A DNA stretch of 64,000 nucleotides from Eublepharis macularius. Taxonomy: Eukaryota; Chordata; Lepidosauria; Squamata; Eublepharidae. The stretch is from contig NC_072796.1 in assembly GCF_028583425.1 (NCBI RefSeq), positions 143,663,464 to 143,727,463 of the forward strand, given 5' to 3'. The notes below the pieces were generated by a model. The model worked only from the letters and a program-made list of their open reading frames with translations, had not been told where the DNA came from and did not search any database. Position numbers and translations under genes: made by a program. Positions 39,220 to 53,596 of this stretch are shown in pieces. Numbering within the stretch: position 1 is the first letter of the stretch; each line of letters starts with the position of its first letter.

Positions 39220-40060
39220 CGCTTAACTAGGCCCATCCCCGCCCCCTTCCGGGCAGCCGCGGCCTCGGCGGAGGGTTCCTGCGAACGCAGGAAACAGGTG
39301 GGACGTGCCCCGCCCTTCCGGCAGGGGCGGGACTTCCTGTCACGGGCGGCGGAAGGGGGCGCGCTTCTTCCGATTCCGGCCGGCGGGGCTGGAGGGGCGA
39401 TGGCGGCAGCGGCGGCGGCGGGATCGGGCGGCTCCGCGGCGGGCCTGCTGTTGGCGGCGGCGCGGGCCTGGGTGCCGCGGCCCTCCCCGCTGCCGCTCCT
39501 GGGCCGCGTCGGGCGGCGCCTCCTCCGGCTGCAGCTCAGCGCCGCGCCGGGCCCGGACCGCTTCCGCCTCGGCCTGAGGGGCGGCCCGGACTCGGGGCCC
39601 GAACCGGTGAGGGGGCGCGGCGGGCCGGGCCGATTGCGCAGGCGCAGGCGCAGGCGCTGGGGGGGGGGCAGGGGGGCAGCCGCGGCCCTTCCTCGGCCGA
39701 AGCTCTGGCGGTCGGCAGCCGTCGTGGCCTTCGCGCTGCCCGGTCCTGCGGCCCGCCTGCCCCGTCGCTGCCTGCCCCGTCCGAGGCGTCCCTTGCGCGC
39801 TTCCCGCCCTGCGCGCACCGTTGGCGCTGCCTTTCCTGCTCTCCGCCCGCCACCCGTTGGCGTTTCCGCCCCTGCCCAGGAGCTTCAGGCCTTTCTGCGC
39901 CTGGCCGAGATGCTGCGCGCAGATAGCAGGGCCGGAAAAGATAAGGGGGCGCCGCCGCTTCCTCTGGCAGCTGGAGATCCGGGGAAGGGCGCAGCCCCAA
40001 GGCGGCGGCAGCGCCTTCCTGCTTCCCCTGCAGGGAGCTCGAGCCGGGCACTCTCAGCCT
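39220..40060 (+). promoter_or_regulatory. CpG island, promoter of the SHARPIN-locus gene
   Basis: CpG-rich stretch enclosing the first coding exon (39400-39606). It contains GGGCGGG boxes near 39327 and a repeated GCGCAGGC unit in the start of intron 1. The transcription start is not resolved. Confidence 0.75.
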
Positions 40061-52000: not shown

Positions 52001-53596
52001 GCTGGTGCAGCTGGGAGAGGCCATGCATTGTCCCGTGTGTCGCATTACAGTGCAGAAGAAGGGAGGCTGCGACTGGCTCCGGTGCCCCGTCTGCCAGACA
52101 GAGATCTGCTGGGTGACCAAAGGGCCACGCTGGGGACCAGGGGTGAGCACACTGGAATGGGGGAGGGGAGCTGGAGCAGGCAGCCAACAGACTGGGGACA
52201 AGGCATCACCGCCAGCCTCCCGAAGAAGGCGAAGTTGTTTGCACTAAGAATAGGCCAACACCACAAGCCCCCTGGCCCCCCTGGCTCTGGGCCTGCCTCT
52301 TTCCAAGCTTTGACCCACTGGGGACTGCTTTGCACCCCTTTCTTATTTCTTATTTCCAGCCCATGACTGTTCCTTCCCTTCTCTGCCTCTGAAGCTGCCT
52401 TATCAGCCCCCCCCCCCCCCGGTCTCTTGGAGTCAGTCTTGACTGTTTGAGCGCCTGAGGCTTTCCCTGCTCTTGAATTGGGGGGGGGGGGGCTGAGCCT
52501 TCTGCATGCCCAGCAGTTGCTCAACCACTGAGCCCCAGCCCCAGAGGTCTTTGAATCCACTGGCACCACACAGCACAGGCCATTTGCAAACAGCAGAATC
52601 CCCCGGGCGGGGAGCTCTTGGGAAAAGACCAAGTCGCTCAGAGAAACGTGCCAGCACAGAACGCTGGTTGCCGCTGGCCCCGCCAGGATTGCAAAGGAAA
52701 GCTTGGAGGGGAACAGCCGATGCCTGCTGAGGCTCCGGAATCAGAGGCGGCAGGGCCCTGCAAAGCACCGTAACCAGAACAGTTTCACCCCACACGGGGC
52801 AAGGGCTTGGTTTGTCGCATGCCAAATGCCAGTTTGTTCTGCACGTCACCCTCCCCTTCTCTAAAACCACAGACGGCGAGGCAGACGGGTGGTAATACAA
52901 ACGCCTTCTCCGGCGAGGCTTCCCTGCTGACCTGTAAAGAGACTTGACTGGGATAGTGTTTTGGTAATTACAGGTTAGGTTTTGATGTTCGCATTTCCTT
53001 CGGATGCTTTATGTCTGGTAGCTTCTTTGGGTGTTCTTTTTGAAAAGTGGGAACTAATACTAGTCAAGGCCAACCAAAATAACAACACAGTAAACAGCTG
53101 GTCAAGTTCTCCAAAACTCTTCTCCAGGCTGGAGGTTAGGAAGGGGAGGTACCTTTCAGGCTTTTGTCTGCGTCTTGCATAAGACGCTACAGCGGCTTCA
53201 GTGCAGGCAGGTCGCGGTTCGCGGGCGGCAAGGCTGTACCTCTGCCGCGGGTGGTCCGTGATGGGTGGGGGCTGCGTTTCGTTGGAAAGCAGCTTCTGTT
53301 TTAACATCCAGCCTGCTGAAGGGAGCTGGAGAACGCAGCAGCAGGCTTGCCTCGTGTAGCGGCATTCTGGTTGGTCCCAACACAGAACGGGAGACTAAAA
53401 TGCAGGAACTGAGATTCGCCGGCTCTCTCCTCTGCCCAAGCCGAGTTCTTCGAAGGGCAGGGCAGCCATGCTGCCACCCGCCGAGCTCTGACTGCTCCCT
53501 CCCCCTTTTCTGCAGGGTCCTGGTGACACCAGTGGAGGCTGCCGGTGCAACGCAGATGGGCAGAGGTGCCACCCCAACTGCCAGAACTGCCACTGA
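39400..53596 (+). CDS. SHARPIN-locus LUBAC-type protein with a full RBR domain (PH-UBL-NZF-RING1-IBR-RING2)
   Basis: SHARPIN and HOIL-1L (RBCK1) are accessory subunits of the linear ubiquitin ligase LUBAC in NF-kB signalling. Exons: 39400-39606, 40245-40419, 41129-41245, 41899-42040, 42206-42296, 42524-42791, 42897-43024, 43273-43446, 49887-50047, 50140-50251, 50511-50690, 51598-51696, 51999-52142, 53516-53596. All join in frame with GT-AG borders to 692 residues. Residues 1-127 match the SHARPIN PH-like domain, which HOIL-1L lacks. The LTM helix (about 167-205), the UBL (about 214-305) and an NZF (377-404, TCTFINKP) follow. Residues 464-692 match the HOIL-1L RBR, including [15 protein letters not shown] (likely catalytic C642) and the end PNCQNCH. 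Intron 8 is 6.4 kb, but the residues beside it align gaplessly with HOIL-1L. No symbol is given because the product combines SHARPIN and RBCK1 features at the SHARPIN locus. Confidence 0.92.
44590..44595 (+). terminator. Candidate intronic polyadenylation signal
   Basis: AATAAA in an AT-rich patch 1.1 kb after the NZF exon, followed by T-rich sequence. If used with intron retention it would end a short, SHARPIN-like transcript. No other evidence. Confidence 0.3.
46953..47245 (-). mobile_element. RTE/BovB-type LINE 3' end (in intron 8)
   Basis: The minus strand reads through the end of a BovB-type ORF2 (a [13 protein letters not shown] stretch near 47120) to the characteristic terminus round CATACATCAGAAGTGACCTG (near 46970). 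Decayed, with frame changes. Confidence 0.75.
48545..48737 (-). mobile_element. tRNA-derived SINE, diverged
   Basis: The minus strand carries TTGTGTAGTGGCTGGAGTG (A-box region), the B box GGGTTCGAATCC, and an end round GGGTCGTGGTTGTGAAGATA. It is interrupted by a poly-C run. Confidence 0.7.
49333..49445 (+). repeat. Repeat fragment with perfect hairpin and hammerhead-like core
   Basis: 49333-49360 is a perfect inverted repeat, AATGTAATCATG and CATGATTACATT with a 4-base loop. Next comes TGACGAAGAGAG...TTCTCGAAAGCTTAT, then TAGTCTTAAAGGTGCTACTGGACTCTT, a repeat family widespread in reptiles. TGACGA, a GAGA/TCTC stem and GAAA are in hammerhead order, but the first C of CTGANGA is G here. Confidence 0.5.
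52440..52550 (-). mobile_element. tRNA-derived SINE fragment (in intron 13)
   Basis: The minus strand has GGGCTCAGTGGTTGAGCAAC and TGGGCATGCAGAAGG, the head of a common squamate SINE. The B box and body are not preserved. Confidence 0.5.

Follow-up and report, generated by a model that had tools for sequence, protein, structure and literature searches.

The SHARPIN gene of the gecko Eublepharis macularius carries a RING-between-RING module and a putative alternative last exon

Introduction

SHARPIN is treated as an accessory, ligase-free subunit of the linear ubiquitin chain assembly complex (LUBAC), which sets NF-κB signalling and cell death. Mammalian SHARPIN comprises a PH domain, a LUBAC tethering motif (LTM), a ubiquitin-like (UBL) domain and an NZF zinc finger, and the human protein ends after the NZF. 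HOIL-1L, the product of the paralogous gene RBCK1, is built of an LTM, a UBL domain, an NZF with a tail helix and a RING-between-RING (RBR) ligase module, and it has no PH domain; mammalian RBCK1 also has a short splice form without the RBR, referred to as RBCK2. Nearly all work on LUBAC is based on mammals. The gene described here is SHARPIN of the gecko Eublepharis macularius, which lies in a 64-kb stretch of DNA (C7:143663464-143727463, hereafter the window; C5, C7 and C12 denote contigs of the gecko genome). It encodes the domain order PH-LTM-UBL-NZF-RBR, and a predicted choice between two last exons would give either a scaffold or a likely ester-forming subunit of LUBAC, a reading with a probability of about 0.8.

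The catalytic subunit of LUBAC, HOIP (RNF31), is likewise an RBR ligase and belongs to the same complex in mammals, but it differs from gecko SHARPIN in architecture, and its product is Met1-linked chains (PMC9527308). HOIL-1L and SHARPIN have been described as conserved from human to Xenopus (PMC5090701). No report of an RBR in SHARPIN, or of the alternative exon 8b described below, turned up in searches of the open-access literature, from which most subscription papers (e.g., on RBR evolution) are missing. SHARPIN-RBR sequences are already public under automatic names, and the interpretation given here is not in print as far as those searches show.

Gene Structure and Domain Architecture

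When the window DNA is spliced, SHARPIN reads as 14 exons (39400..53596, plus strand) with a single open frame of 692 codons followed by TGA. All 13 introns are GT-AG and the exon phases are compatible. The spliced frame places the start and the first part of the PH domain in exon 1 (39400..39606), further PH sequence in exon 2 (40245..40419, also by Pfam), a linker in exon 3 (41129..41245) and the LTM in exon 4 (41899..42040, also by Pfam). The UBL domain occupies exon 5 (42206..42296) and, together with a linker, exon 6 (42524..42791), both consistent with structure-sequence matches; exon 7 (42897..43024) is a further linker. Exon 8 (43273..43446) encodes the NZF and its tail helix, as judged from the frame, solved structures and the exons of gecko RBCK1. 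The RBR follows, with frame and RBCK1 exons in agreement: helix and RING1 in exon 9 (49887..50047), RING1 in exon 10 (50140..50251), IBR in exon 11 (50511..50690), IBR to RING2 in exon 12 (51598..51696), RING2 with the putative catalytic Cys642, Trp644 and Glu653 in exon 13 (51999..52142), and a Zn2Cys6 cluster, C-terminal His692 and the stop in exon 14 (53516..53596), the last two exons being marked by motifs as well. A candidate poly(A) signal for this long form, AATAAA, lies at 54086..54091 on the plus strand (consensus match only).

The top protein match is P0001, filed as "sharpin isoform X2 [Eublepharis macularius]" and 691 aa long, which is the same as the window protein except for one residue. 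This gap is explained by the tandem acceptor TAGAAG of exon 4 (window 41890-41910), either of whose two acceptor positions is usable, at the cost of one residue.

The front of the protein is of SHARPIN type. Pfam assigns residues 30-128 to Sharpin_PH (E 1e-28) and residues 168-209 to the LTM (E 1.9e-18), while the NZF, ubiquitin and most RING families score slightly below their cut-offs. Compared by sequence with solved structures, the front matches the SHARPIN PH structure 4emo (E 5.7e-10), the middle matches both SHARPIN structures (5y3t_C, 5x0w) and the UBL and NZF structures of HOIL-1L, and residues 414-692 match the RBR of human HOIL-1L (8eaz, E 1.6e-118). Identity to human SHARPIN is 38% over 40-406 and to human HOIL-1L 50% over 165-692. 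An AlphaFold2 model of P0001, built with 37 relatives, has a mean pLDDT of 62.8, with better values for the PH domain, LTM, NZF plus tail helix and RING1; with this model as the Foldseek query, HOIL-1L RBR entries rank first, and the LTM-UBL part and the PH domain fit 5y3t_C and 4emo at TMt 0.78 and 0.77, respectively.

The NZF-tail helix has been described as unique to HOIL-1L (PMC5413910). Exon 8 of gecko SHARPIN encodes a counterpart of it, including the YxP motif (PMC10511788), and in placental SHARPIN the helix is shortened.

An earlier note, made from the letters of the window alone, had proposed 14 exons with matching phases and 692 residues, a front half from SHARPIN and a back half like the RBR of HOIL-1, all of which agree with the results above. 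Its "LGPEAC-type linker" is only a brief resemblance to human SHARPIN and carries little weight.

Occurrence in Other Vertebrates

A first protein search returned 366 matches from 7992 scored candidates, and the best 120 (381-1211 aa) were scored with profiles for PH, LTM, UBL, NZF, RING1 and RING2. All six parts are present in 111 of the 120 (two entries, P0025 and P0088, having exon 13 skipped). The others comprise seven proteins without PH (436-661 aa), which are read here as partial or 5′-different models, and two without RING2 (P0082, P0092). Every one of the 120 was classed as SHARPIN-type, the two class profiles having been made from tree rows that are thus partly judged by themselves. 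Named species among these matches include squamates, turtles, birds, amphibians, the coelacanth, ray-finned fish and a sawshark; mammals do not figure by name in the best 120 of this search. As the earlier note had suspected of automatic annotation, RBCK1-like labels occur: most names are either "sharpin" or "ranBP-type and C3HC4-type zinc finger-containing protein 1", and fish copies among the listed matches are filed under the RBCK1 name.

P0100 and P0108, of 696 and 701 residues, come from contigs of only 2,990 and 2,984 bases. They are best read as spliced cDNA, i.e., as transcripts joining PH and RBR, because an uninterrupted frame of that length fits in so short a contig. Between gecko and sawshark SHARPIN, identity is 80% in RING2, 70% in the RBR, 65% in the UBL and 42% in the PH domain. 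Within tetrapods, conservation of the UBL is at least as high as that of the RBR.

Shorter relatives were sought with a PH-UBL profile under size bounds of ~145-460 residues, which exclude longer forms. Among the best 120 of 297 matches, PH, LTM, UBL and NZF are all present in 110 and the NZF is missing in 10; within the size range admitted, neither RING1 nor RING2 was detected in any of the 120, 118 of which are not sauropsid. Placental SHARPINs in this set differ from the gecko protein in that they end after the NZF or after a tail like that of exon 8b. Marsupials and monotremes are not named among the best 120 rows of either search, and neither invertebrates nor lamprey are named among the best 120 of 366, 297 and 749 matches in the three protein searches (the third is described below).

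A Putative Alternative Last Exon

Three short sauropsid proteins, P0082 (Gekko kuhli), P0308 (Crotalus adamanteus) and P0321 (Alligator), diverge from the long form once exon 8 is over and run into a GRREDSPA-type tail; the record of P0082 is flagged "UNVERIFIED_CONTAM". The corresponding gecko exon, here referred to as 8b, lies in the 6.4-kb intron 8 at 44832..44927 (plus strand) and was placed by the tails of these three proteins and of placental SHARPINs. It has a long pyrimidine tract at its acceptor, is in phase with exon 8, and encodes 31 residues followed by TAG, so that splicing of exon 8 to 8b gives a predicted SHARPIN of 465 residues. A candidate poly(A) signal for this short form, ATTAAA, is found at 46281..46286 on the same strand (consensus match only). 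Exon 8b, which the earlier note overlooked, can in principle let one gene yield the long form as well as a short one like that of mammals. RBCK2 offers a parallel, in that the paralogue of SHARPIN has a ligase-free splice form, too.

Many placental SHARPIN C-termini resemble TRREDGPSLPGPRSLDPLLNLSGDLC. In 44 of the 118 non-sauropsid entries of the PH-UBL search (best 120 of 297; entries without the pattern are not counted), the tail beyond the NZF core is 33 or more residues long. When six hand-picked placental tails were compared with four sauropsid tails, the mean local score was 45.3, against 18.3 in 2000 shuffles (sd 1.1, highest 22.6); for two single placental-sauropsid pairs, none of 10000 shuffles each attained the observed score. 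Since these placental tails match sauropsid 8b tails, placental SHARPIN would correspond to the 8b form, and the RBR exons downstream would be the part that was lost. The listed primate and rodent tails end earlier, without an 8b-like part. It thus looks as though placental SHARPIN shrank stepwise, with a shorter NZF-tail helix in placentals generally and additional loss of the 8b-like tail in primates and rodents.

It is rather unlikely that one last exon dominates in practice, either with 8b hardly used or with the short form prevailing and the RBR form rare. Most sauropsid entries listed in the first search are long, under length limits that favour long proteins, and 8b-tailed short entries number three. 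Against dominance of one form, the 8b peptide is conserved among geckos, rattlesnake, alligator and placentals, and the RBR is well conserved as far as sharks.

In the RBCK1 locus of the gecko, a short tblastn search gave no credible 8b-like exon. Its one candidate, an identity of eight residues (GRREDSPA, E 0.048), lies in a different intron, the one that follows the RING1 exon, within sequence that appears repeat-like by eye; it was set aside as a chance match.

Active-Site Residues

In HOIL-1, C460 is catalytic and W462 occupies the place of a His in other RBRs. Transfer requires the final residue, H510, a possible triad partner of C460 and E471, and two zinc ions are held by six Cys with the spacing C-x19-C-x-C-x6-C-x3-C-x2-C (PMC9834252). 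Gecko SHARPIN has C642, W644, E653 and H692 together with the same Zn2Cys6 spacing, and shares with HOIL-1L the Cys-Asp-Trp of the RBR. Among the 120 best matches of the first search, GCDW is found in 116 and the full catalytic and cluster pattern in 111. A wider survey took 107 long forms, selected on catalytic motif, C-terminus and length. Gecko SHARPIN and all 107 of these proteins retain each of the 26 Cys that HOIL-1L has from residue 282 onward. His residues (HOIL-1L numbering) are more variable: 302, 370 and 510 are kept in 107, 406 in 105, 503 in 92, 469 in 38 and 396 in none. Since its catalytic residues and zinc spacing match those of HOIL-1, the long form of gecko SHARPIN is likely to carry out oxyester ubiquitination.

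Alternatively, the retained RBR could be a pseudo-ligase that serves structure or ubiquitin binding, all ester chemistry being left to HOIL-1L. The presence of HOIL-1L in the same genome would suit such a division, and the activity of SHARPIN is read from its sequence. The idea is nonetheless quite improbable, given that catalytic Cys, Trp and Glu, the C-terminal His and the zinc spacing are retained in those 111 of 120 proteins and that RING2 is so similar between gecko and sawshark.

Some gene models depart from this pattern. Exon 13 (144 nt), which holds the catalytic Cys, is skippable in frame and is absent from the predicted proteins P0025 of Crotalus tigris and P0088 of Pelodiscus sinensis; a SHARPIN of this kind would be a dead ligase. 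Two snake models, P0016 and P0019, read on past exon 13 and lose the C-terminal zinc cluster, and their ends may be annotation or splice variants.

The RBCK1 Paralogue and the Origin of the RBR

RBCK1-type proteins were collected with a 315-residue NZF-RBR profile under size bounds of ~174-551 aa, which leave out full-length PH-bearing proteins. Six of the best 120 of 749 matches had also come up in the first search; the 114 new entries comprise 102 RBCK1-type proteins and 12 SHARPIN-type fragments. All 114 contain GCDW. A strict catalytic pattern that demands Arg at one position leaves out 53 of them; with that position relaxed, the full pattern is found in 102. RBCK1-type proteins among the listed matches come from mammals (including echidna and possum), reptiles, amphibians, fish and sharks. 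Twenty-one species (e.g., gar, bowfin, axolotl, Rhinatrema and sawshark) are named in both listings, and in all 21 the two proteins differ in class.

The separate RBCK1 gene whose presence the earlier note had proposed to check was found in the gecko. Its protein, P0164, lacks a PH domain and was located exon by exon at C5:170654448-170674909 on the minus strand, with exon borders set so that introns are GT-AG and the translation is exact. Beginning at the LTM, the introns of gecko SHARPIN and RBCK1 have equal phase in 10 of 10 cases, and the exons from NZF through RBR (SHARPIN exons 8 to 14) are equal in all seven lengths, namely 174, 161, 112, 180, 99, 144 and 81 nt (the last counted to the stop). 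The two RBRs are 62% identical. Gecko SHARPIN is nevertheless not a HOIL-1L/RBCK1 protein: it has a PH domain, and it differs from RBCK1 in both locus and clade.

Trees were rooted at the midpoint, the root itself not being inferred. An RBR tree of 40 rows, hand-picked to span groups (242 columns), separates 19 SHARPIN-type from 21 RBCK1-type rows as two clades supported at 100/100, and cartilaginous fish occur in both (one SHARPIN row, three RBCK1 rows). A second tree of the LTM-UBL-NZF part (44 rows) places four placental SHARPINs within the SHARPIN clade, where a long stem (0.79) leads to them and their position is not firm. Gecko SHARPIN groups with SHARPIN rather than RBCK1. Since each RBR clade holds sharks, an RBR-bearing SHARPIN is at least as old as the jawed-vertebrate ancestor; the trees show that the SHARPIN/RBCK1 duplication is older than living jawed vertebrates and that SHARPIN already had its RBR. 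They also support loss of the RBR on the path to placental mammals, placental SHARPIN being a reduced form. The lack of an RBR holds for placental SHARPIN and not for the gecko protein, and because the trees indicate that it is derived, it is not a trait that defines the family.

Of the two origins offered by the earlier note, loss of an ancestral RBR in mammals is supported, and is shown for placentals; regain in this lineage is contradicted by trees and exon structure. The "hybrid" of the earlier note was the wrong picture, the PH-to-RBR protein being the older, full form. New gain of the RBR in the gecko lineage, with RBCK1 as the donor in a fusion or in exon shuffling, might be suggested by the RBR-less human protein and the 387-aa gorilla SHARPIN (P0237), as well as by the identity to gecko RBCK1. 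It is scarcely credible in view of the two shark-containing clades, in which the gecko SHARPIN RBR does not nest with that of gecko RBCK1, and of intron phases that agree all the way from the LTM to the stop and NZF-RBR exons of the same length. Recent fusion or regain is therefore ruled out. An artefact of assembly or annotation joining two loci in intron 8, which the earlier note had allowed for between 43.4 and 49.9 kb, has a negligible chance: nothing was found in its support, and it is ruled out by recurrence of the same domain order in 111 of the 120 best matches from many species, by a window free of N and by the location of RBCK1 on another contig.

A Proposed Role in LUBAC

Exons encoding UBA_HOIP were located on C12 of the gecko genome; with RBCK1 on C5, the genes of all three LUBAC subunits therefore appear to be present. 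HOIL-1 needs linear tetra-ubiquitin to be active, and its activity keeps HOIP from extending chains (PMC9853177), the subunits of LUBAC occur at 1:1:1 (PMC8245127), and HOIL-1L and SHARPIN pair through their LTMs (PMC6044281). From these properties, a complex with two ester-forming RBRs may be expected with the long form of SHARPIN, and a mammal-like one with the short form. The UBL and LTM of gecko SHARPIN would make the same contacts with HOIP and HOIL-1L as those of mammalian SHARPIN. With exon 8 spliced to exon 9, the 692-residue ligase would bring LUBAC to three RBRs (HOIP, HOIL-1L and SHARPIN), two of them ester-forming beside HOIP. Switched on by bound linear chains, like HOIL-1, it would load ubiquitin on Cys642, with His692 as base, and ester-link single ubiquitins to Ser/Thr, to chains made by HOIP or to sugars. 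With exon 8 spliced to 8b, the 465-residue product would be a ligase-free scaffold.

Several observations weigh against reading the gene as a two-form source of a scaffold and a ligase. Both gecko isoforms are predictions from DNA sequence, and so is catalysis by the long form. Apart from the window, exon 8b was observed in no more than three annotated proteins of sauropsids, among them the flagged P0082. Four of the 120 listed matches lack GCDW (P0025, P0082, P0088 and P0092, all truncated or exon-13-skipped models), and five more fail the full pattern near the C-terminus: P0016, P0019 and P0023 have other ends, and P0089 and P0091, from herring-like fish, have one residue fewer between two of the cluster Cys. 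Finally, the AlphaFold2 model is poor in its IBR-RING2 part, and the Foldseek matches to the RBR have a large rmsd that stems from domain placement and from the weakness of the model; the RBR assignment consequently draws on sequence matches.

The chances are about even that most jawed vertebrates have a three-RBR LUBAC with two ester-forming members, in which SHARPIN toggles by its last exon, and that the mammalian complex is a simplified one with SHARPIN frozen as a scaffold. Should SHARPIN prove active as an oxyester ligase in fish, amphibians, reptiles and birds, the division of labour in human LUBAC would be a derived state and work on "HOIL-1L" or "SHARPIN" in zebrafish, chicken or Xenopus may need rereading; lineages with and without an RBR-bearing SHARPIN would constitute a natural experiment on the role of a second ester ligase.

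The Surrounding Window

SHARPIN is flanked in the window by exons of CYC1 (54712..58412) and MAF1 (11241..13416), both on the minus strand. This is the SHARPIN locus, as the earlier note had stated; in human, SHARPIN lies between MAF1 and CYC1 as well. Exon 8 of SHARPIN has a single match in the gecko genome by DNA search.

Between MAF1 and SHARPIN, the interval 21625-33981 contains two pairs of identical 300-nt direct repeats spaced 11,297-11,298 nt apart, with long frames between them at 24409-26262, 26266-27480 and 28963-31569; by eye, it looks like a young endogenous retrovirus. At the start of the window, positions 1-2139 form a 713-codon open frame that resembles, again by eye only, the polymerase end of a retroelement.

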